A DNA stretch of 60,223 nt from Clostridia bacterium. GTDB lineage: Bacteria; Bacillota; Clostridia; Christensenellales; Aristaeellaceae. This document shows positions 13,974 through 27,109 of this stretch, one piece after another. The number at the start of each line of letters is the position of its first letter. Position 1 is the first letter of the stretch. Below the pieces are notes generated by a model, which was not told the origin of the DNA, made no database searches, and saw only the letters and a program-made list of their open reading frames with translations. Position numbers and translations under genes: made by a program. The DNA is taken from the NCBI GenBank assembly GCA_017550745.1, contig JAFZOG010000062.1, positions 1 to 60,223 of the forward strand, written 5' to 3'.

Positions 13974-14173
13974 ATGATAAACGAGAACACACGTTTTTTA
14001 GTGACGACGAAGAATGGATTTGAAAAAAAGCGGCATCTCTCTTAAACCCGACAGCATCATCAACAGAACGTTCCAATTCCGCCTTTACAGAAGAAGAGCC
14101 TCAAGTAGCGAAAGAAATCATCGGTGAATTTTCGAAGGAGGACTCCTCAGATGCGTTTCCTTCACCTGGCTGA
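13974..14173 (+). CDS. Small 66-residue ORF interrupted at a slippery A AAA AAG heptamer
   Basis: An ATG at 13974 with AGGAGAG ten bases upstream gives MINENTRFLVTTKNGFEKK and, without shifting, stops at 14045. At 14024-14030 the zero-frame codons read (GA)A AAA AAG. A -1 shift there continues into an open, acidic, protein-like frame (AASLLNPTASSTERSNSAFT...) ending at TGA 14173, 23 bases inside sbcD. Either this is programmed -1 frameshifting, a real frameshift mutation, or a homopolymer error in the assembly. The function is unknown; the overlap suggests coupling to sbcD. Confidence 0.4.
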
Positions 14174-15272
14174 CCTTCATCTGGGTAAGCAAATGAATGA
14201 CTGGTCTTTGCTTACGGATCAGGAAGCAGCTCTACAGCAGATCGTATCCATCGCGGTCAGCGAAAAGGCGGACGCCGTGCTGATTGCTGGGGACGTGTAT
14301 CAGCGGTCATCGCCCCAGGCGGAGGCCATGGCGCTGTTTGATTCGTTTGTGTCGCAGCTGGCGGGGCTGGGCAAAAAGGTGTTCATCATCAGCGGCAATC
14401 ACGATTCCGCTCTGCGGATCTCGTACTTTTCTTCGCTGATCAAGTCCTCCGGCGTGTATGTGTCGAAAGCGTTTGAGGGGAAAATGCAAAGCGTCACCTT
14501 GCAGGACCGGGACGGGGAGATCGTGGTTTGGATGCTGCCTTTCCTGCGCCCGTCCCAGGTGAAGCGTAAACTGCCGGAAGAGAAGATCGCCACCTATCAG
14601 GACGCGGTGGAAGCGGTGCTGCGGCAGACGCCCGTCGATCCGAAAAAGCGGAATATCCTCCTGTGCCACCAGTTCATCACCGGCAGCGAAACCTCCGATT
14701 CCGAGGAGCGGGCCGTGGGCGGGCTGGACAACATCGACGCGGCTGTGTTCGACGCCTTTGATTATGTGGCCCTGGGGCATATCCACAAGCCGCAGAAGGT
14801 GCTGCGTGACACCCTGCGCTACGCCGGGTCGCCGCTGAAATACTCCTTCTCCGAAGCCAGCCACAAAAAGAGTGTGGCCATTATGGACATACGGGCAAAA
14901 GGGGACATAGCGGTGCACACCGTACCGCTGTATCCCCTTCATGACGTGCGGCTCATCGAAGGAAAGCTGGATGATCTGACGCAGATGGATTATTCCGAGG
15001 ACTACGTCTGGGTCACGATCCACGACGAATTGCCGCCGCCCGACGCCCGGGTGACGCTGACCGTCAACTTCCCCAACATGATGAAGTTCTCCATCGTCAA
15101 TTCCCGGACCAAATACGACGTGGACGTGCTGGCGATGCAGCGCATGGAAAACAAGACCGTGCCCGAGCTGTTCAGCGATTTCTACCGGCTGCAGAACAAC
15201 GACCAGGAACCGAGCGACGCGCATTTGAAGGTGCTGGACAAGGTGCTCCGGGAATTGGAGGAAACGCCATGA
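14151..15272 (+). CDS. sbcD: Exonuclease subunit SbcD (Mre11 family)
   Basis: 373 residues. Metallophosphoesterase motifs in order: HLADLHLG (Asp and His), AGDVYQRS (GDxx), SGNHDSA (GNHD), HQFITG and GHIHKPQ. It is the Mn-dependent nuclease partner of SbcC, which opens DNA hairpins and processes blocked ends. The ATG at 14151 follows GAAGGAGGA. The stop overlaps sbcC as ATGA, giving coupled translation. Confidence 0.96.
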   Translation: MRFLHLADLHLGKQMNDWSLLTDQEAALQQIVSIAVSEKADAVLIAGDVYQRSSPQAEAMALFDSFVSQLAGLGKKVFIISGNHDSALRISYFSSLIKSSGVYVSKAFEGKMQSVTLQDRDGEIVVWMLPFLRPSQVKRKLPEEKIATYQDAVEAVLRQTPVDPKKRNILLCHQFITGSETSDSEERAVGGLDNIDAAVFDAFDYVALGHIHKPQKVLRDTLRYAGSPLKYSFSEASHKKSVAIMDIRAKGDIAVHTVPLYPLHDVRLIEGKLDDLTQMDYSEDYVWVTIHDELPPPDARVTLTVNFPNMMKFSIVNSRTKYDVDVLAMQRMENKTVPELFSDFYRLQNNDQEPSDAHLKVLDKVLRELEETP

Positions 15273-17899
15273 AGCCGATCAAGCTGGTCATGTCCGCTTT
15301 CGGGCCTTACGCCGGGGAAACCACGGTGGATTTTTCCATGTTCGGCGAGACGGGGATTTTTCTCATTGCCGGGGACACCGGCGCGGGCAAAACCACCATT
15401 TTCGACGCCATCAGCTTCGCCCTGTATGGCGAGGCGTCCGGCGGCAAGGAGCGCCGGAAAAGCAAATCCTTCCGTTCGGATTACGCGGCGGCAAAAACGG
15501 AAACCTACGTCGAACTGACCTTCCGGCACAAGGACGAAGCCTGGTGCATCCGGCGCAATCCCGAATACGAGCGGCCCAAAATCGGCAGGGAAGGCACCAC
15601 CACGCAAACCGCCAATGCTTTTCTCACCAACCTGGATACCGGCGAAGTGATCGAAGGGCTTCGGGATGTAAACGATAGAGTCTATGAACTGCTTGGTCTT
15701 ACTCAGGATCAGTTTACCCAGACGGTGATGATCGCCCAGGGGGATTTCCTGAAAATCCTCAACGCCTCCTCCGATGATCGGAAGGCGCTGTTTCAGAAGC
15801 TGTTCAATACCTCGCTGTACGCTTCTTTGCAGCGGAAGCTGCAGGAAATGAACAGCGGCAACACCAAAGAAAAAGAGCAGCTGGATCAGCGCATCAAAAT
15901 CGCCGCGGGCAAGATCGATCCCGAGCCAGACTTCCCGGAACGGGACAGCATCGTTTTGTATTGCCAGGAGCCCAAGTATGCCGACCTGCTGGCGGAATGT
16001 CTGGAACATCTTCTGGACAGTGAAAAGAAAGCCCGGGATGCTGCCAAACAGGAAAAAGAAACCGCAGCGGAGCAGGGGACACGTCTGGTTGCCGCCATCG
16101 AACAGGGAAAGGCGATCAACGACGATTATGATGCCCTGGAAAAAGCGCAAACCGCGCTGCAAACGCTGCTGGATGACCATATCCATATGGACGGGCAGGC
16201 GGAAAAGCTGAGCACCGCCCGGAAAGCCCAAGGCTTGGCTGCCGACGAAGCGCTGCTGGCCGGAAACACCAAAGAAATAGAAAGCCTCGAGAAAGAACTG
16301 GATCAGGCGAAGCATGCCCTGCAAACCGCTGAAGATGCCCTGCCGGAAGCGGAAAAACAGCTGAAAACGGCGGAATCGCACACGGAGGAAGCGGACGCCC
16401 TGCTGGCTTCCGCAAAGAAGCTGGAAGACTGCATCCCGGTATGCAAGGATCTCGAAAAGCAGCAAAAGAAGCTGAAAACACAGCAGAACAAGATCGCGGG
16501 TTTGCTGGACGACAGCAAACAAGCCGATGAAGCCTATACCGCGGCCAAGGAAGGCTATTACCGCAGCCAGGCGGGCTTGCTGGCAGCAGAATTGACGGAA
16601 GGGCAGCCCTGTCCCGTGTGCGGCTCCACGGCCCATCCTCATCCCGCAGAGCTGTCCGCGGAAGCCGTCACTAAAGAGGCCATGGAGGCTGCGGAGCGGC
16701 TTCATCAAAAGGCTGCCGACGCGCTGCATGCCGCCGATACGGAACTGACCGCCCTCAAATCCGGCATCGCTGCCTGCCAGGCTCGGTTACAGGAAGCGGG
16801 CATCCGGGAAGACGAAACGGAAACCGATCTGGAAAAGCGAATCCGGGAGATGAAGCAGCAGGCCCAACAGTACCGCGACGCGGTCGAAGCTTCCCGGAAA
16901 GCGCTGAGCGATCTGCATATCCTGATCGAGAAAAACCGCACCGCTCTGGATCAGGGCACTCAGCGGATGGATGCCTTACGCAAAGCAGCGAATGAATTGC
17001 ATATTCGGTTTGAGGAAAAGCTGGCTGCCGCTGGATTCGAAGACGATCGTGCCTATCAGCTGGCCAAGCTGCCGGATGCAGAAACGGAAGCGTTGGACAA
17101 GCAGATCCGGGTATACGGTGAGCAAAGGAAATCGCTGACCGATCAGGTAGCCTCCTTAGAAGAAAAACTGTCCGGTAAAGAAAAAACGGACGTTGCCGCA
17201 TTGGAACAGCAGCGTCTGGATCAGGATACAATCCGGGCTAATGCTGAGAATGCAGAAAAAGCAGTTTCCAAGAAGCTGACGATCCACGAGGATGCGCTGA
17301 AAGAAATCAAAGACGCCCGCAGGCAGCAGAAGCGCCGGGAAGAAAACTGGGCCATCGTCCGGGACCTGTACAACTGCTGTGCAGGCATTGCTGGCGGAAA
17401 CCGCCGGGCGAAGATGACCTTTGAAGCCTACGTGCAGCAGTACTATTTCAAGCAGGTGGTGGCCGCCGCCAACAAGCGCCTGACGGTGCTGACGGACGGT
17501 CTGTTCACGCTGCGCTGCAAGGAAGAAGCCAGGGATCGAGTGCACCAAAGCGGCCTGGATCTGGACGTGCTGGATCGCGCCACCGGCCAGTGGCGAGACG
17601 TCAGCACCCTCTCTGGTGGTGAATCCTTCCTGGCCAGCCTGGCCCTGGCCTTGGGCCTTTCCGACGTGGTGCAGGCCCAGAGCGGAGCCATCCGCATGGA
17701 CGCCATGTTTATCGACGAGGGCTTCGGCACCCTGGATGAAAATGCCCTGCGCAATTCTCTGCAGGTACTGTCCTCCCTGGCCGATGGCAAACGGCTCATT
17801 GGTATCATCTCCCACGTCCATGATCTGGAAGAAAGGATCGAAAAACAAATTTTCGTATCAAAAACATTGACTGGATCCAGAATTGATATATTCACTTAG
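15269..17899 (+). CDS. sbcC: Exonuclease subunit SbcC (Rad50-like ATPase)
   Basis: 876 residues, shorter than the E. coli protein, mainly in the coiled coil. Walker A is GDTGAGKTTIFDA near residue 35. Long coiled coils flank the zinc-hook CPVC at Cys448/Cys451. The ABC signature LSGGESFLASLALALG, Walker B MFIDEGFGTLDE and the switch His (ISHV) close the head. It forms the SbcCD complex with the preceding gene. Confidence 0.96.
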   Translation: MKPIKLVMSAFGPYAGETTVDFSMFGETGIFLIAGDTGAGKTTIFDAISFALYGEASGGKERRKSKSFRSDYAAAKTETYVELTFRHKDEAWCIRRNPEYERPKIGREGTTTQTANAFLTNLDTGEVIEGLRDVNDRVYELLGLTQDQFTQTVMIAQGDFLKILNASSDDRKALFQKLFNTSLYASLQRKLQEMNSGNTKEKEQLDQRIKIAAGKIDPEPDFPERDSIVLYCQEPKYADLLAECLEHLLDSEKKARDAAKQEKETAAEQGTRLVAAIEQGKAINDDYDALEKAQTALQTLLDDHIHMDGQAEKLSTARKAQGLAADEALLAGNTKEIESLEKELDQAKHALQTAEDALPEAEKQLKTAESHTEEADALLASAKKLEDCIPVCKDLEKQQKKLKTQQNKIAGLLDDSKQADEAYTAAKEGYYRSQAGLLAAELTEGQPCPVCGSTAHPHPAELSAEAVTKEAMEAAERLHQKAADALHAADTELTALKSGIAACQARLQEAGIREDETETDLEKRIREMKQQAQQYRDAVEASRKALSDLHILIEKNRTALDQGTQRMDALRKAANELHIRFEEKLAAAGFEDDRAYQLAKLPDAETEALDKQIRVYGEQRKSLTDQVASLEEKLSGKEKTDVAALEQQRLDQDTIRANAENAEKAVSKKLTIHEDALKEIKDARRQQKRREENWAIVRDLYNCCAGIAGGNRRAKMTFEAYVQQYYFKQVVAAANKRLTVLTDGLFTLRCKEEARDRVHQSGLDLDVLDRATGQWRDVSTLSGGESFLASLALALGLSDVVQAQSGAIRMDAMFIDEGFGTLDENALRNSLQVLSSLADGKRLIGIISHVHDLEERIEKQIFVSKTLTGSRIDIFT

Positions 17900-18312: not shown

Positions 18313-18341
18313 TTGTCATTCCTCCGATGTTCAGATATAAT
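18313..18341 (+). promoter_or_regulatory. Promoter of the radical SAM/Cys-tail operon
   Basis: TTGTCA (18313-18318) and TATAAT (18336-18341) with a 17-base spacer. It implies a leader of about 248 bases before the radical SAM gene. That leader contains a GC-rich stem-loop (GCCGCGCC 18537-18544 with GGCGCGGC 18552-18559) just before the ribosome site. Confidence 0.75.
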
Positions 18342-18596
18342 GGAGGGGTGTACAGGTACTGCCGAAAAGCCGGGAAGGAACGGGGCGCGGAAACGGTGGA
18401 CAGGCATACCCATACAAGCGCGTATCCGATGACAATTTGACCGCCCCTGCCGACATTCTGACCGGTATCCCTTGTACCAGCGGCCTTTTCCTGTTATGCT
18501 CACCCTGCGGAAGGAAAGAACGGGCTGCATGCTCCCGCCGCGCCGTCCGCAGGCGCGGCATCAGCGCGCTTGAAAAAGCATCTAAAGGAGGACACG

Positions 18597-19958
18597 ATGA
18601 ATTTTCGGGAATGGAAATACATGAAAACCAGCTTCACCGGCGTATCCCATACGACATTGAATCCGCGGGGGCCGGGCGTGGTGCGCATCCATCTGGTTCC
18701 TCCAAAGCATCCCATGAAAGAGCCGTCCGTAGCCATCCTGAACGGACAGGATATCATCCCGGTAAATCCCAGCTGGACGGTGCTGCTGAATCAGTTTATC
18801 GCCCGGATAAACCAGTACCCGGACCGGCCGCTGGTTCAGGAGGATTTAGACAGGATCGTGGAACAGACGGTAAACGATACTTGCCGTATCTTTCCCAAAA
18901 CGCCCCGCGAAACCATCCACAGCGACCTGGGCACCATGCTTCGGGCGCTGATGGACGTTGCTTACGGGCGCAAGCCGGAAACGGAAATCGGCTTTTTGAG
19001 CCTGGGAGAATACGCGCCTTTCATGACCGCTCCTCATCGGATGGATCTCATGGTATCCGCCATGACGAAGGACGGGCATTGGCACTGCAACCAGAAATGC
19101 CTGCATTGCTACGCCGCGGGCCAGCCCGAAGCGGAAGTAAAGGAACTGACCACGGCGGAATGGAAGCGGGTAATCGACGAATGCCGGAAAGCCAATATCC
19201 CCCAATTGACCTTTACCGGCGGGGAACCCACCATGCGCGCGGATCTGGTGGAGCTGGTGGAATACGCCAAATGGTTCGTGACCCGGCTCAACACCAACGG
19301 CGTGAACCTAACGGAAGATTTGGCCCATGCCCTGTACGACGCCAGTTTGGACAGCGCCCAGGTCACCTTCTATTCCTCCGTTGAAGCCACCCACAATACT
19401 TTGGTCGGGGCTTCCAATTATTTAAGGACCCTGGCCGGGCTGGAAAACGTGCTGAAGGCAGGCATCAGCGTGAGCGTGAACACCCCCCTGTGCAGCCTGA
19501 ACGCCGGAGAATACGCGGACACGCTGAAATTCCTGCGGGATCTGGGCGTTGGCTATGTGTCCTGCTCCAGCCTCATCCTGACCGGAAACGCGCGGGAAAA
19601 GGACAGCCAGGCCACACAGCTGACCGAAGCGCAGCTGGTGGAAACCCTGTCCGCCGCCGCCGCGTTCTGCGCCGAAAACGAAATGGAGCTTTCCTTCACC
19701 TCCCCCGGCTGGGTGAAGGAAGAAACCTTGCGGGAACTGGGCCTCATGGTGCCCTCCTGCGGCGCCTGCCTTTCCAATATGGCGGTAGCGCCCAACGGCG
19801 ACGTGGTCCCCTGCCAGAGCTGGCTGTCGGACAAGCCCCTGGGCAACCTGCTCACCGACGCATGGAAGCAGATCTGGAATCGGCCCGAAACTGTAATCAT
19901 ACGTGACTTTGCCGCGAAAATGACCCACGAATGCCCGCTGAAAAAGGAGGGCTGCTGA
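18597..19958 (+). CDS. Radical SAM/SPASM-like enzyme, putative peptide maturase
   Basis: 453 residues. The N-terminal 150 residues include a PqqD-like stretch (AILNGQDIIPVNPSWTVLLN), as found in peptide-recognition domains of maturases. The radical SAM core has Cys164-x3-Cys168-x2-Cys171 (CNQKCLHCY) and the glycine motif LTFTGGEPTM. The C-terminal region carries Cys388, Cys391, Cys406, Cys446 and Cys453, arranged like the auxiliary-cluster SPASM/twitch domain. The last cysteine is also the last residue. AAAGGAGG before 18597 sets the start. Its stop overlaps the next gene by one base (TGATG). The likely substrate is that neighbour's cysteine-rich tail (inference). Confidence 0.88.
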   Translation: MNFREWKYMKTSFTGVSHTTLNPRGPGVVRIHLVPPKHPMKEPSVAILNGQDIIPVNPSWTVLLNQFIARINQYPDRPLVQEDLDRIVEQTVNDTCRIFPKTPRETIHSDLGTMLRALMDVAYGRKPETEIGFLSLGEYAPFMTAPHRMDLMVSAMTKDGHWHCNQKCLHCYAAGQPEAEVKELTTAEWKRVIDECRKANIPQLTFTGGEPTMRADLVELVEYAKWFVTRLNTNGVNLTEDLAHALYDASLDSAQVTFYSSVEATHNTLVGASNYLRTLAGLENVLKAGISVSVNTPLCSLNAGEYADTLKFLRDLGVGYVSCSSLILTGNAREKDSQATQLTEAQLVETLSAAAAFCAENEMELSFTSPGWVKEETLRELGLMVPSCGACLSNMAVAPNGDVVPCQSWLSDKPLGNLLTDAWKQIWNRPETVIIRDFAAKMTHECPLKKEGC

Positions 19959-20917
19959 TGAAAAAAATATTCGTGCTGTTTGCTGTGTTCCTCTGCCTGC
20001 TGCCTGCCTGCGCCTTTGCAAAGGATCTGGACGAGATCCAGAATTACGGCGTCAGCGTGCAATTGCGGGAGGACGGTACGGCTGACCTGACTTACCATGT
20101 GGACTGGCTGGTGCTGGACGACAAGGCCGAGGGCCCCCTGGAATGGGTGAAGATCGGCATTCCCAATCAGCACGCCGACAGCTTCACAGCGATTTCCCAA
20201 AATATCAGGAAAATCGGTTACCTGTCCGACGGCGGCTCCTTTGTAAAAATCACCTTTGACCGCAAGTATTACGCGGGTGAAACCGTATCTTTCGATTTTT
20301 CCCTGCACCAGGCTTATCTGTACGCGCTGGAGGACGGCGCCGTGCGCTTCTCCCTCACGCCCGGCTGGTTCGATAAGATCGAAGTGAAAAACGCCGTGAT
20401 CCGCTGGAAAGCGGCGGGTGTGCAGTCCTCCAACGCGGAATTGGAGGAAAACGGCTATCTGTTCTGGAAAACCGCGCTGCGCAAGGGCGAACGGCTGCGG
20501 GCGGAGGTCGTTTATCCCCGCAGCTATTTCATGCAGCTGGATGAAGCAAAGCAATCCACCAACGCAAAAGCCGATGAAGAGGATATCTATTTGATCCTCG
20601 TCGGGCTGCTGGTCACCATCGTGATCATCTTTTTAATCGTGCGGGCTTTGGGGAACGACAATTACCGCGGCGGCTCCGGCTTTGGCGGCGGGCATCCCGT
20701 GATCGTCCATACCCATACCCGGTCCGGCGGCTGTGTCCGTTCCTCCTGCGCCTGCGCTTCCTGCGCCTGCGCGTGCGCCTGTGCCTGCGCCGGCGGCGGA
20801 CGGGCGGGCTGCTCGAAAAAGGACTTCTACAATGGTCCCGGGGAAAACGCCCCCGCCCATACCGACGATGTGTTCCCCATGCTGTTTCAAGCGCTGGAAA
20901 ACACACAAAGGCAATGA
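19958..20917 (+). CDS. Membrane protein with cytosolic Cys-Ala repeat tail; candidate radical SAM substrate
   Basis: 319 residues. Signal peptide MKKIFVLFAVFLCLLPACAFA, then an extracellular beta-rich domain of about 185 residues reminiscent of DUF2207. One membrane helix follows (about 208-232, LVGLLVTIVIIFLIVRAL), then a Gly/His linker. Nine cysteines sit at 259, 264, 266, 269, 271, 273, 275, 277 and 285 (core CACASCACACACACAGGG), followed by AGCSKKDFYNGPGE. With a cleaved signal peptide the N-domain is outside and the Cys tail is inside, where a radical SAM enzyme could reach it. The Cys-Ala run is coded by near-perfect TGCGCC repeats (20747-20791). AAAGGAGG is seven bases upstream, inside the radical SAM gene. 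Confidence 0.85.
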   Translation: MKKIFVLFAVFLCLLPACAFAKDLDEIQNYGVSVQLREDGTADLTYHVDWLVLDDKAEGPLEWVKIGIPNQHADSFTAISQNIRKIGYLSDGGSFVKITFDRKYYAGETVSFDFSLHQAYLYALEDGAVRFSLTPGWFDKIEVKNAVIRWKAAGVQSSNAELEENGYLFWKTALRKGERLRAEVVYPRSYFMQLDEAKQSTNAKADEEDIYLILVGLLVTIVIIFLIVRALGNDNYRGGSGFGGGHPVIVHTHTRSGGCVRSSCACASCACACACACAGGGRAGCSKKDFYNGPGENAPAHTDDVFPMLFQALENTQRQ

Positions 20918-20929
20918 CACTGCCTTTTT
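20907..20929 (+). terminator. Terminator overlapping the Cys-tail gene stop
   Basis: AAAGGCA (20907-20913) pairs with TGCCTTT (20921-20927) and runs into T residues. The stop codon lies in the loop. The stem also suits the convergent MFS gene. Confidence 0.8.
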
Positions 20930-20950
20930 CACCGGCCGCAGGGCTCGGGT

Positions 20951-22345
20951 TTATCCGTCAAGCCTTCTGAAAAGATTGAAATGCATCAGCCCATGAAACA
21001 CTGACCGAAGGAGCTGCCGGGGTGTGCCCTCGCGGTCGTTCTGCAGCGGCGGCACCAGGAATACCGCCACGCACACCCGCAGGATCACCGCTGTCAGGAT
21101 CAGGGCCTTGAAGCGGTCAAAGCTGCCTGTAAACCAGCCCGCGCTCTGCCAGCCTTCCAGCAGCAGGCCGCCGGTCAGGGAGCCAAGGGTGGTGCCCGCA
21201 AGAGACGTGACGCAGGCAAAGACGGCGATGCAGGAGGGGCGGATCTCATCGGGTGAGGTGGAAAGCTGCATGCTGTTGGCTGCCAGGTTGGTGCCGCTCC
21301 AGAACATGGCTCCCGCGAAATTCCTTAGCAGCACGGGGATCACATTGCCCGGGGTGGAAAAGAGATAAAAGGCGTCGGTCAGCGCAGCCACCCCGCCTGC
21401 CACCAGCATCACGCTGCGGCAGCCGAAATGATCCAGCGCCTTGCCCCAGCGGGAAATCACCAAAATGGTGGCGACAGAGGCCGCCGCCGTGCCGAACACC
21501 ATCATCTGGGTAAAGGTCAGCCCCATTTCGTTCACGGAATAACGGGCCAGGTAGGGGCCGCACATATTGGAGCAAAAGCACCAGGCCGTCCACATGATGA
21601 TCAGCCGCAGGAAAGGCCGGTTGCGCAGGATATCCTTCACGATGCCGCCGAAATGCAGCCGTTGGGGAGGCGCGGAATAGACTTCTTTGCAGAAGCCGAA
21701 GCATATCATATCCAGCACACCCACCGTGCCGCCGATGATAAAGATGACGATGTACCGGCTTTCGATAGGCAGCGTGTCCAACAGCCGCGCCACCAGCAGG
21801 CCAAACAGCAGGTTGCACGCCGCCACCACGGAATCCCGGATGGAGAACCACCGGCCCCGGATGCTGATGGGCGCCAGGTCGCTCAGCCAGGGAAACCAGC
21901 ACACGTTGATCGCGGAGGAACAGCAGGAAGAAATGCCCAGCAGGAAAATCAGCGTCCACAGCGCCAGGCCCGCGGGCTCCTGCGGCACCACCAGCGGAAT
22001 GAACCCAAACAGCAGCCACAGCATCCGGGAAAACAGGCCGTAGGTCAGCAGATATTTTTTTCGTTTGTGCGTGCGGTTCACCAACAGCGAAAACGGGATC
22101 TGCAGCAGCGCCGCCGCCTGGGGAATGCTGTTGAGAAGCCCGAAGGCGAAGTCCCCCGCCTGCAGCTGGTTCGCCAGGCCGATCATGGCCGTGGTGCCGC
22201 CGCCGCAGATAATGCCGTGCATGTTGCCAAACAGATTGCCCAACAGGATCAGGCTCAGGCTGCGCCGGATCTCCTGCGGCAGATTTGCTTCCTCATAGAG
22301 CCTGCTTAAGGGATTGCTCCCATACGGCTTACGGACAGTGCTCAC
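20951..22345 (-). CDS. MFS transporter
   Basis: 464 residues, about 12 hydrophobic segments, GTG start with GGGAGGAAA upstream. The cytoplasmic loop between helices 2 and 3 reads LLVNRTHKRKKYLL, typical of the superfamily. The fold and length suggest a drug or sugar-like MFS exporter or importer; the substrate is not predictable. A promoter and hairpin leader precede it. Confidence 0.88.
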   Translation of the reverse strand: MSTVRKPYGSNPLSRLYEEANLPQEIRRSLSLILLGNLFGNMHGIICGGGTTAMIGLANQLQAGDFAFGLLNSIPQAAALLQIPFSLLVNRTHKRKKYLLTYGLFSRMLWLLFGFIPLVVPQEPAGLALWTLIFLLGISSCCSSAINVCWFPWLSDLAPISIRGRWFSIRDSVVAACNLLFGLLVARLLDTLPIESRYIVIFIIGGTVGVLDMICFGFCKEVYSAPPQRLHFGGIVKDILRNRPFLRLIIMWTAWCFCSNMCGPYLARYSVNEMGLTFTQMMVFGTAAASVATILVISRWGKALDHFGCRSVMLVAGGVAALTDAFYLFSTPGNVIPVLLRNFAGAMFWSGTNLAANSMQLSTSPDEIRPSCIAVFACVTSLAGTTLGSLTGGLLLEGWQSAGWFTGSFDRFKALILTAVILRVCVAVFLVPPLQNDREGTPRQLLRSVFHGLMHFNLFRRLDG

Positions 22346-23689: not shown

Positions 23690-24844
23690 TCATTTTGAAT
23701 AGCGCTTTCGCCGGTCAATTCCCGGAGCGCTGTAATACCGCTCCTTTTCCCGATACATCATCTGGTCGGCCAACACTTCCAGGTCATGTATATCCGCTTC
23801 CGGGTGCTCTCTGCGCGACGCATAGCCTACTGACAGCGACAGCCTATCTCCATACGCCCCGTGCCAGGAAGCCGAGCGGCGCTTGATCTGTTCCAGGAAA
23901 TCCGCGGGGGAAGCGGTCACCGCGGTGGCAATGAATTCGTCCCCGCCGGTTCGATAGACTTTTCCGCAAGAGCCGATCACCTTTGTCAGGCATTCAGCCG
24001 TGGCTGTGAGCAGCTCGTCTCCGGCAACATGGCCTTTGGTGTCGTTCGCTTCTTTCAAGCCGTTGACGTCGATGGAAAAAACGACAAAATCCTTCTCCAG
24101 CTCTTTTTCTTTGTAAAGCCCGCTATCCGTGTCATAGCTCCTTCTGTTATTGAGCTCCGTAAGCTCATCCGTCATGGAAATACGGATCAGCTGCTCCTCT
24201 TTTTTCTTTTGTTTGGCAATATCCCGTATCGTATAAATCAGTTCCTGGTAATGCCGCGTAGAAACCTTGCAAAGGCCGTAGCCTGCCACCACCATGATCA
24301 CCGTCTCTATGGAAAAGCCGCCCATTCTTCCCATAAAGTATTGAAACGCGTTTTCATAGTCCACCCGGAGGCCCGCGTAATAAGGCGAAACGATCCAAAC
24401 TGACAGCGTCATCATGAGATAGTTGAGCACAACAGCCACCGCGTAGATCTTAAAGTCGCAGAACAGCAGGCTGATCAGCGGCACAACAAACCAGGTGATA
24501 TAGATGCCAATGTGCGCGCTGTTCATCAGGATCAGCAGCAGATCGACCGCCAGAAACGCAATGATCGCCGCGCGCAGGGTGTTTCCTTCCCGTTTGATCA
24601 GCGCATAGTGGATACAGGAAAGCAAAAGGACCAGAACCGACACGGCAAGGCATGACGTATACGTGACGCTGTGAAAGATGCCCGCCCGTATAGCCAGCAT
24701 CAGCAAGGGGCCGATCAGGATGGAGAACCTGAGGAACTTATTCATCAGCAGGTTTGTTTTTCTCTGGTTTTCCTTCAAAAAGGTCTTATAATCCGATACT
24801 TCTGACCGGATGACCGCCTCATCCTGTTTTTCATCTCTTTTCAT
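23690..24844 (-). CDS. Membrane GGDEF diguanylate cyclase
   Basis: 384 residues. About six membrane helices (residues 45-200) form a compact sensor. A short coiled linker (AKQKKKEEQLIRISMTDELT) then leads to a GGDEF domain with intact signature (YRTGGDEFIA) and no RxxD inhibitory site. It would make c-di-GMP in response to a membrane or small-ligand signal. Start at 24844 with AAAGGA ten bases upstream. Confidence 0.88.
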   Translation of the reverse strand: MKRDEKQDEAVIRSEVSDYKTFLKENQRKTNLLMNKFLRFSILIGPLLMLAIRAGIFHSVTYTSCLAVSVLVLLLSCIHYALIKREGNTLRAAIIAFLAVDLLLILMNSAHIGIYITWFVVPLISLLFCDFKIYAVAVVLNYLMMTLSVWIVSPYYAGLRVDYENAFQYFMGRMGGFSIETVIMVVAGYGLCKVSTRHYQELIYTIRDIAKQKKKEEQLIRISMTDELTELNNRRSYDTDSGLYKEKELEKDFVVFSIDVNGLKEANDTKGHVAGDELLTATAECLTKVIGSCGKVYRTGGDEFIATAVTASPADFLEQIKRRSASWHGAYGDRLSLSVGYASRREHPEADIHDLEVLADQMMYREKERYYSAPGIDRRKRYSK

Positions 24845-24892
24845 AATGCTTGGTCCTTTCCTCCGATGATGAACCACTTTGTGAGACAGCTT

Positions 24893-27109
24893 TTAACTTG
24901 GGATGATCAAATAACGCGGCGAGAAGATCCCGCTGCCGCTCATTTTGTAATATCCCCTGAATACCCTGTCGATGACGATGGATACCCCTTCATTGTCCGT
25001 TCCTACCAGGATGATCAGGTATTGCCTTCGGCTGTACCGGGTCACCACATCCACATTCCGAATCGTCTGCCGGATGGATTGATCCATAAAGAACATTGCT
25101 TTTTCCAGCTCCTCGGTCTGCGGCGCAGCGCCGACAGGCGCTTCAAGCTCAATCAGAATCAGCTTAAAGGGATGGGCGAACCGGTGCTCCAGGTTGGAGA
25201 TGTATTCATACAGCCTCGCGAACTGCCTGTATTCCACATCCAGGGCGCCGTCATAGCTTCCGCTGGTTCTGATGCTGCACACGAGCTTGTCCGCGTCCAC
25301 CTTGCCCTCGGATTCAGTTTCGATGCTGTAGAAGTAATATCCGCCTTTGCCATTTTGCTTGACATGGTAGAGCGCTTTGTCCGCTTTGTTGAATATGATC
25401 GTGTAGGTCTCGGAGGGCGTGCTCATCGCTGCGCCGGCCGAGAGGGACGCCACGGAAATCTCCACATCCGCGTTCTTTTTCTGTGCAAACTCGCTGATTA
25501 CCTTTTGTATTCTGGCCTCCGCTTCTTCCCTGGACGCGTCTTTCACGAAGAGGATGAATTCATCCCCGCCGAGCCGGCAGCACAGGCCGTCATCGCTGTT
25601 ATCGGCAAGCATCTCCCCCGTCAGCTTCAGCGCCCTGTCCCCGGCGGAATGGCCGCTTGTATCGTTGATTTTCTTGAGATTGTCCATATCAAACAATACA
25701 AACCAGCCGTTATTCTCCTGCATGGCCTTGGCAATGGCCGTCTCCCCCGCGGTCCGCCCCATAATTCCCGTGATGAGGTCGATATCATCCGCGGCGTTTT
25801 GGGACATGAAGCTCTCCATCACTTGCTGCAGGAGCGCCGTGGACGCCTCCAGGTCGTCGTATGGCGCTTCAGGCTCTTCTTTGCTTCCCTGGTTCAGAAG
25901 CCCCTGATCCCACAGCCCGATGAATATATCCACAAACCGCGGGTCAAACTGCTTTCCCTTTCCTTCGATCAGCTCCCGCCGGATGTGTTCGGCATCGCAG
26001 GCCTTTCTGTATATGCGGTTGGAATTCATGGCGTCAAAGGCGTCCGCAATCGCGACGATCCTGGCCTCTTCCGATATCTCCTCTCCCTTCAGCCCGCGCG
26101 GGTAGCCATCGCCGTCATATCGTTCATGGTGGCTCCGGGCCACGTCTTCCGCCGCCTTGATGGCTATACGGTCCTTCAATATATCCCCGCCCATGGTGGT
26201 GTGGGACTTGACGATGCCATATTCCACATCCGTAAGCCGCGTAGGCTTATTCAAAATCGAATCAGGCACGCCGATCTTCCCGATATCGTGCAAAAGCGCC
26301 GCGTATCTGAGTTCATTGATCCGCTCCTCATCCCAGCCCAAGGCCTCCGCGACCAGCACTGCGTGTTGGCTCACACGGGTTGAATGGCCCTTGGTATAGG
26401 GATCCTTGGCGTCGATGGCATGCGCCAGCGTTTGGATCGTTTGGAAGGACATCTGCTCGATTTTGCGGCTGCGTTCCTCGGCCACGGCCGTCTGCCTGGC
26501 AACTTCCTCATTCAGCCTCCGGGCGTAGTCGATCTCCAGCAGCGCGTTCCGGTGATACTGAACCATGGCCAGGCCGGTAAAGACGGACAGCGTGATATAT
26601 ACGATGGCGAAGCGTTCCATGAATTCTTCCGTATAATATGCGGTAAACATATTTCTAAGCGGGGTAAAGAAAAGGACCGCGTAAAGAATACTGTAGTAAG
26701 CGGAGAAGATGATCCCGTATTTGACGCTTACGAAATAGCACAGCCCGATGGGAACCAGAAGAGAATACAGCATAGCCAAGCCGTTTGCTGCGCCGGTCAG
26801 CGCGTAAATCGTGAACGCGACTCCGCAGAAGATGGTGGGAATCAGGCTTGCAATATCGTCTCTCTTCAGCACGCGCGCGCAATATGCGCAGCCTATGCCC
26901 AAAAAAGCCACGACGATGGACGCGAACATCATGACATATTCATGCGAGACCGCGTTCAAGATAATCAGCACCACGCACAGCATGGTCGTGACGATGCTGA
27001 CAAAGAAAAGCATCTTCAAGTGGGTTTCCCGGCGTTCGCCCACATAGATCGATTGGTTCAATAGCCGCCACGTTTCCTTGACGATATTTTTCTTTTCCCG
27101 GCTTTTCAT
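24893..27109 (-). CDS. HD-GYP phosphodiesterase + GGDEF protein with degenerate third domain (7TM-like sensor)
   Basis: 738 residues. Hydrophobic N-terminus (about six helices, residues 30-190). HD-GYP domain residues about 220-400: YTKGHSTRVSQ, LLHDIGKIG, ARSHHERYDGDGYPRG, all consensus for c-di-GMP hydrolysis. GGDEF domain about 440-600 with CRLGGDEFILF, no RxxD. Residues about 610-738 are a degenerate GGDEF-like fold (TIRNVDVVTRYSRRQYLIIL) also found in the REC-GGDEF protein and in the next HD-GYP protein. Opposing activities in one chain suggest ligand-dependent switching. Confidence 0.9.
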   Translation of the reverse strand: MKSREKKNIVKETWRLLNQSIYVGERRETHLKMLFFVSIVTTMLCVVLIILNAVSHEYVMMFASIVVAFLGIGCAYCARVLKRDDIASLIPTIFCGVAFTIYALTGAANGLAMLYSLLVPIGLCYFVSVKYGIIFSAYYSILYAVLFFTPLRNMFTAYYTEEFMERFAIVYITLSVFTGLAMVQYHRNALLEIDYARRLNEEVARQTAVAEERSRKIEQMSFQTIQTLAHAIDAKDPYTKGHSTRVSQHAVLVAEALGWDEERINELRYAALLHDIGKIGVPDSILNKPTRLTDVEYGIVKSHTTMGGDILKDRIAIKAAEDVARSHHERYDGDGYPRGLKGEEISEEARIVAIADAFDAMNSNRIYRKACDAEHIRRELIEGKGKQFDPRFVDIFIGLWDQGLLNQGSKEEPEAPYDDLEASTALLQQVMESFMSQNAADDIDLITGIMGRTAGETAIAKAMQENNGWFVLFDMDNLKKINDTSGHSAGDRALKLTGEMLADNSDDGLCCRLGGDEFILFVKDASREEAEARIQKVISEFAQKKNADVEISVASLSAGAAMSTPSETYTIIFNKADKALYHVKQNGKGGYYFYSIETESEGKVDADKLVCSIRTSGSYDGALDVEYRQFARLYEYISNLEHRFAHPFKLILIELEAPVGAAPQTEELEKAMFFMDQSIRQTIRNVDVVTRYSRRQYLIILVGTDNEGVSIVIDRVFRGYYKMSGSGIFSPRYLIIPS

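Follow-up and report, generated by a model that had tools for sequence, protein, structure and literature searches.

This analysis concerns two overlapping genes, one for a radical SAM/SPASM-type enzyme and the other for a membrane protein that ends in a tail of alternating cysteine (Cys) and alanine (Ala) residues. They lie in a window (the whole stretch of DNA analysed, 60,223 nt) on the forward strand of contig JAFZOG010000062.1 from a Clostridia bacterium (GCA_017550745.1). The genes share a single base, the A of the ATG of the second gene being the final base of the TGA of the enzyme gene. The features of the pair, numbered as in the window, are given below.

18313..18341, plus strand: promoter-like site TTGTCA-17-TATAAT, upstream of both genes (consensus scan, 11/12 matches)
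18584..18591, plus strand: ribosome-binding site AAAGGAGG, before the ATG start of the enzyme gene (sequence reading)
18597..19958, plus strand: radical SAM/SPASM-type enzyme, 453 amino acids, ATG start (translation; Pfam Radical_SAM and SPASM)
18753..18956, plus strand: N-terminal domain of the enzyme, an approximate region resembling the recognition element (RRE; PqqD) for ribosomally synthesized and post-translationally modified peptides (RiPPs) (profile comparison through sister clades)
19086..19535, plus strand: radical SAM domain with C164, C168 and C171, CX3CX2C (Pfam, alignment)
19758..19934, plus strand: SPASM/Twitch region with C388, C391, C406 and C446 (Pfam, cysteine columns)
19958..20917, plus strand: membrane protein, 319 amino acids, candidate substrate (translation; 25-row alignment)
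19958..20020, plus strand: signal peptide, about residues 1-21 (hydropathy; model helix 2-14)
20021..20575, plus strand: outside beta domain, DUF2207-like, plus linker, residues 22-206 (AlphaFold2 model; weak Pfam DUF2207 match under the cut-off)
20576..20650, plus strand: membrane helix, residues 207-231 (AlphaFold2 model; hydropathy)
20732..20830, plus strand: Cys-Ala tail and the motif following it, residues 259-291, nine cysteines (translation; codon comparison)
20792..20827, plus strand: GGGRAGCSKKDF, in which GRAGC and KDF are invariant in 25/25 sequences (25-row alignment)
20907..20927, strand not assigned: inverted repeat, terminator-like (called on the minus strand only)

An earlier note, made from the DNA letters alone, had described a radical SAM/SPASM enzyme overlapping a membrane-protein gene by one base, which translation and Pfam confirm. 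The layout it gave for the second protein (signal peptide, extracellular domain, single helix and tail) is borne out by hydropathy, with a hydrophobic stretch at the N-terminus and another helix further on in 25/25 relatives, and by the AlphaFold2 model, which places beta strands within residues 25-187 at high confidence and a helix at 207-231, residues 233-304 having a predicted local distance difference test (pLDDT) score <50. Its nine tail cysteines were found at 259, 264, 266, 269, 271, 273, 275, 277 and 285, five of them in a continuous Cys-Ala run (269-278). The five extra C-terminal cysteines that it had listed for the enzyme are all present (388, 391, 406, 446 and 453), the conserved ones being the first four only. 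As for the shared promoter and terminator that it had proposed, the promoter-like site is a good match to the consensus and is not proof, because six such sites were found in the region where 1.8 are expected; the terminator is the weaker of the two, given the strand on which the repeat was called, and five T stand at the plus-strand end of that repeat.

The enzyme and the tail protein are neighbours, mostly with overlapping genes, and show strict co-occurrence in the genomes sampled. Scanning genomes with only the enzyme as query gave 28 loci (46-90% identity). A membrane-protein neighbour is present at 27 of them and carries a Cys-repeat tail in 25; in the other three the contig ends before the tail with the membrane gene present (two loci) or inside the enzyme gene (one locus). 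Since the tail gene lies upstream of the enzyme gene in five loci (L023, L028, L029, L032 and L036) and downstream in the rest, the pairing survives rearrangement. For 22 of the 23 pairs the intergenic gap is between -20 and +16 bases; in the 23rd (L034), which is outside that count, the frames overlap. Of the 391 class genomes scanned, 11, from eight families, have a match to a 36-residue tail profile, and it is in the same 11 that an enzyme profile reaches >=193 bits. Seven of these have the two genes adjoining on one contig, and three (G254, G293 and G435) have them on separate contigs, at the contig ends or close to them. In the last, G376 (a single contig; L063 4660-8950), a transposase-like gene stands between the enzyme gene and a tail gene without a start, and the pair is probably broken there. 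The enzyme gene of G293 has a stop codon within the match and that of G418 is cut by the contig. Exactly one tail was found in 18 of the 20 genomes reached via the enzyme, the contig ending inside the tail gene in the other two. Chance neighbourhood is ruled out by the recurrence across loci and by the co-occurrence in 11/11 class genomes. Closer to the window the tail protein is patchy (7/60 genomes including the window's own, all of its genus), and G299 (L071 3782-7078) has two tandem tail genes before one enzyme gene, with a Tyr replacing a Cys of the run in one tail. The tail protein had no plasmid match; 20 relatives of the enzyme, 28-37% identical over parts of it, occur on viral contigs.

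Within the membrane protein, constraint is strongest on the tail. Mean column identity over 25 sequences is 92.6% in the tail, 55.9% in the outside domain, 34.6% in the helix and 37.1% at the extreme C-terminus (alignment A1 leaves out L014, L016, L026 and L030; alignment A2 leaves out L029, the frame of which is whole, and L016 and L035, which are cut). Codon-pair differences among the seven closest sequences are 292 synonymous and 0 nonsynonymous in the tail, 1011 and 587 in the outside domain, and 174 and 151 at the extreme C-terminus. Short repeated codons can expand by slippage, and on this ground the Cys-Ala run might be a DNA repeat artefact with a coincidental neighbourhood; yet the codons drift under a constant protein sequence, and the same tail accompanies the same enzyme in 11/11 class genomes of eight families, so that the probability of an artefact is negligible. 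The tail is beyond chance because its protein sequence is fixed while codons drift and because it adjoins the enzyme in 25/28 loci; the count of 292 against 0 rules out a chance or slippage repeat. The tails share a grammar, namely (CA)n, two small residues, GRAGC[ST]xKDF and then mostly Y or F, in which the repeat count varies and the motif behind the repeat is nearly fixed. The divergence of the outside domain follows that of the enzyme (r 0.92 for 23 pairs, 0.80 for the 17 without near copies), a correlation reached by 0/2000 permutations.

The tail is probably cytosolic and the beta domain outside, judging from the distribution of charges, which places the tail inside in 20/24 relatives (a count that leaves out L024, where the tail was taken for the helix). 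Zinc-ribbon-like CxxC pairs, which are more typical of the cytosol, occur between helix and tail in 5/25 tail proteins, with a Pfam zinc-ribbon match in two. A zinc-ribbon-like segment with a Ser-rich linker joins helix to tail in one branch (L018, L020, L024, L025 and L035). No conserved lipoprotein motif is seen in the 25 rows of the tail-protein alignment, and Pfam YxzE matches in 5/25 relatives look like Gly/His low complexity.

Few other genes accompany the pair. Apart from frames overlapping it, the most recurrent neighbour is one gene in 5/43 sequences (four genomes), other clusters having at most three members, and no peptidase, exporter or metal-handling gene recurs beside the pair in these clusters. 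The enzyme and the membrane protein could act jointly on a third molecule, the tail merely docking the enzyme at the membrane, and physical pairing by itself fails to distinguish docking from modification; but no third gene recurs widely, and a variable-length Cys repeat is unnecessary for a docking motif, which makes docking very improbable. Alternatively, the tail would be the core of a released RiPP with the membrane protein as its carrier. The enzyme type and the Cys-rich core resemble those of sactipeptide and ranthipeptide systems, but neither a peptidase nor an exporter is recurrent and the outside domain is conserved (its column identity is given above), and the chance that a peptide is released is judged slim.

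With the enzyme as a probe, the pair extends into a wider family. In the phylum, 76 genomes have an enzyme match at E <=1e-28, and 30 loci were opened; tail profile A3 reported no tails of clades 3 or 5, which were reached through the enzyme. The next-nearest enzymes adjoin membrane proteins with other Cys tails, of the form CACVSCACAC...GAGC, CACACACASSGGCT or (CHSA)n. In subtype 2 (G293, G367 and G376) the tail ends (CA)n[GV]GGRVGCSERGYQVLHWL. In clade 3 (316-344 bits, 10 genomes) the membrane-protein neighbour ends ...C[AHY]CVSCACACVSCACACACAGG[GR]GAGC, the tail being visible in eight of ten loci, cut by the contig in one and unreadable in one. Clade 4 (200-210 bits, four genomes) has CACACACACA followed by SSGGCT, or GGGGCT in one, in 4/4 genomes, and clade 5 (140-163 bits, six genomes) has (CHSA)n ending CVSGGAR in 6/6; three clade 5 tail proteins read whole have ~560-600 residues. 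Three clade 5 loci (L152 3748-4737, L153 2574-3596 and L154 65-1045) hold a third gene, of about 330 codons, after the enzyme gene, and its protein has no Pfam or NCBIfam match. Twelve loci opened at 120-133 bits have no Cys-tail partner, short Cys-rich frames that overlap other readings in three of them being taken as spurious.

In a tree of 61 enzymes, the 49 tail-linked members, a few with tails unreadable at contig ends, fall on one side of a branch with support 100/100. The six tail labels need five changes on this tree, which is the minimum (shuffled mean 32.1), and subtypes 1 and 2 meet at a fork that the tree leaves unresolved. The tree leaves room for further families inside the group because the 12 outsiders are all of one kind. 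These loci show five or more tail grammars, every one of which is tied to an enzyme group of its own, and the tail type follows the enzyme tree. The earlier note, in which the Cys-Ala pair was rightly seen, had understated this breadth. No element varies less than Cys across all five grammars. Stretches rich in CxC are ligands of soft metals, and the tail might serve the enzyme or the cell as a metal-binding or redox ladder (copper, zinc or iron-sulfur), with no covalent change made by the enzyme; the zinc-ribbon-like segment before the tail in one branch is in keeping with this. A metal site by itself, however, gives no reason for every tail grammar to have a SPASM-type enzyme clade matched to it, and no metal-handling gene is recurrent beside the pair, so that a bare ladder is improbable.

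The enzyme is above the curated cut-offs of Pfam Radical_SAM (64.6 versus 29.5 bits) and SPASM (35.4 versus 21.5 bits), and the three cysteines of CX3CX2C are invariant in 26/26 aligned enzymes. Three alignment columns that hold Cys in clades 3-5 are empty in subtypes 1 and 2. Without these three cysteines the window enzyme is Twitch-like, with one auxiliary site by cysteine count, and its set is too small for the two auxiliary clusters of a full SPASM enzyme. Its N-terminal domain, called PqqD-like in the earlier note, is likely RRE-like. Compared alone with PqqD it scores 9-14% (positive control 92%, shuffled sequences 0.1-0.2%), and the support comes through intermediate families: the core profile matches clade 3 at 99.6%, the core with clade 3 matches clade 4 at 93%, clade 4 alone matches at 75-87% (87% against PqqD), and the core with clades 3 and 4 matches at 61-79% (79% against the RRE set).

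Among the best 25 of 68 NCBIfam families, the enzyme reaches no cut-off, which rules out a known NCBIfam system, and its similarity is scattered over many SPASM families. A PADLOC match to a prokaryotic viperin (53 bits, residues 163-305) is general radical SAM similarity only. By sequence, SkfB (E 3.6e-17, residues 165-428) is the closest relative with a solved structure, followed by an archaeal tetraether-lipid synthase, PqqE and 5v1q. SkfB, the sactipeptide maturase of the sporulation killing factor, is described as a thioether-forming enzyme with an RRE and a Twitch domain that acts on a small leader-core peptide (PMC6231123). The window enzyme has the same radical SAM core and Twitch-like C-terminus with one auxiliary site, and probably also a Cys-rich target, but its partner is a membrane protein of 319 amino acids. 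A small precursor with a leader, as used by sactipeptide and ranthipeptide maturases, is not what the locus holds; the Cys repeat stands at the C-terminus of the large partner. The SCIFF/ranthipeptide maturases of the CteB type are also SPASM-type enzymes with a Cys-repeat target, and PDB 5wgg, which we take to be CteB, matches the window enzyme from residue 89 to 423; they differ in their small precursor and in the second auxiliary cluster, for which the window enzyme has no cysteines. The SPASM enzyme of the ACGX system (TIGR04340), the target of which is a repeated Cys-containing one, is far off (54.2 bits versus a cut-off of 400), as is that of the rSAM/lipoprotein system (TIGR04133; 79.7 bits versus 425), in which the enzyme is paired with a larger cell-envelope protein and to which the absence of a lipoprotein motif here is a further difference. 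The target motif of anaerobic sulfatase maturases, C/S-x-A/P-x-R, is absent from the tail CVRSSCACASCACACACACAGGGRAGCSKKDFY.

The outside domain is related to DUF2207 and is not a member by Pfam score: the window protein has 12.2 bits against PF09972 (gathering threshold 24.4), and weak matches occur in 14/25 relatives (best E 6.2e-5). The earlier note had linked such Cys-Ala tails to DUF2207-like proteins, which is broadly right for the outside domain; the orthodox DUF2207 proteins at the loci read are without such tails. Matches to DUF2207 occur in 58/196 class genomes; among 30 loci (those of the best matches, read with 1.5 kb on either side; 27 frames complete, the longest frame perhaps not DUF2207 in a few), none has >=4 Cys in the last 60 residues and none a radical SAM motif within reach. 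Some 22 of the 30 end in a Gly-rich tail by eye, and an orthodox DUF2207 tail is ruled out by these counts. SMU.243, a DUF2207 protein of Streptococcus mutans, resembles the window protein in its outside domain and layout, and its loss is reported to weaken tolerance to acid and peroxide stress and biofilm formation (PMC10457818). Because of these phenotypes, a role in envelope stress is hinted at for the tail protein.

Taken together, the tail is quite likely the substrate of the enzyme. The strict pairing makes likely the earlier note's proposal of an inner membrane-protein tail as substrate, in place of a small leader-core peptide. The survey for tails without the enzyme, which that note had suggested as a check, turned up both partners in the same class genomes and a single tail in nearly all genomes reached through the enzyme. 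Since the pairing recurs in distantly related bacteria, the enzyme probably cross-links the tail. That it does so by binding the tail and installing repeated thioether links, giving a permanently membrane-anchored modified tail, is somewhat favoured. The membrane protein is predicted to insert with its DUF2207-like domain outside and its Cys-Ala tail inside, alongside the iron-sulfur enzyme. The RRE-like N-terminal domain would grip the tail, and the invariant GRAGC[ST]xKDF would probably be the point of contact, acting as a follower sequence. A 5'-deoxyadenosyl radical would then abstract hydrogen from the residue between cysteines, here Ala, and the thiol of the adjacent Cys, which the one auxiliary iron-sulfur site may hold in place, would close a sulfur-to-carbon thioether. 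Ala is reported as a thioether acceptor in ruminococcin C1 (PMC6779426). Repeated along the tail, the reaction would remove 2 Da per link (-2 Da), and the tail, not being released, would give an envelope protein a stiff, cross-linked inner end that may bind metal and may serve as an anchor or a signalling element.

Several observations weigh against parts of this scheme. The charge distribution leaves the tail outside or undecided in 4/24 relatives, and common descent of neighbours could alone produce the correlated divergence of domain and enzyme. For the RRE assignment, the PqqD match of the N-terminal domain by itself is as low as stated (9-14%), that of clade 3 alone is 4.7%, and the core matches clade 5 at 0.3%. 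Against known thioether maturases the NCBIfam scores fall far short of the cut-offs, and the CHSA tails would need acceptors other than those of a pure Cys-Ala scheme. The tail could indeed be the substrate of a different chemistry, be it epimerisation, carbon-carbon links, cyclopropane-type -2 Da changes or sulfur loss. Radical SAM/SPASM enzymes are described as performing all kinds of peptide chemistry (PMC8326336), and the spread of similarity across many SPASM families leaves room for this. In the TvgB system, according to PMC9062424, one radical SAM enzyme modifies a TVGG repeat many-fold, with repeated -2 Da carbon-carbon links. The repeated modification of a repeat motif is as proposed here; the TVGG motif is without cysteine and sits in a peptide, not in a membrane-protein tail. 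Against another chemistry stand the constancy of Cys in all five grammars and the fact that, of the enzymes with solved structures, the one closest in sequence is a sactionine synthase; such a chemistry is thus unlikely, if by no means far-fetched.

The surroundings of the pair, identified by eye, include genes resembling SbcD and SbcC in the upstream flank (14124-17899), an MFS-type transporter-like gene downstream on the minus strand (20951-22345) and, also on the minus strand, two adjoining genes resembling GGDEF and HD-GYP/GGDEF signalling proteins (23690-27109).

The open-access literature, among the matches listed (titles and abstract openings), gave no description of the enzyme-tail pair, a provisional result as subscription papers lie mostly outside it, and in the members scanned neither the tail nor the enzyme group is covered by a Pfam or NCBIfam model. 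The cross-linking of inner tails of membrane proteins by radical SAM chemistry thus seems undescribed. In its broadest form, the proposal is of a radical SAM superfamily specialised in cross-linking the Cys-repeat tails that DUF2207-type envelope proteins extend into the cytosol, with five or more matched enzyme groups, the never-released, membrane-anchored RiPP-like tails serving as inner structural, metal or signalling elements; the chances of this are put at about even. Known cases of radical SAM/SPASM maturation mostly concern short peptides, which are excised and exported. If the proposal is true, it would extend radical SAM chemistry to the permanent architecture of membrane proteins and open a first way into the mechanism of one branch of the DUF2207-like proteins, which are widespread; the matched pairs of enzyme and tail could also be used to give proteins stiffened or metal-binding ends.

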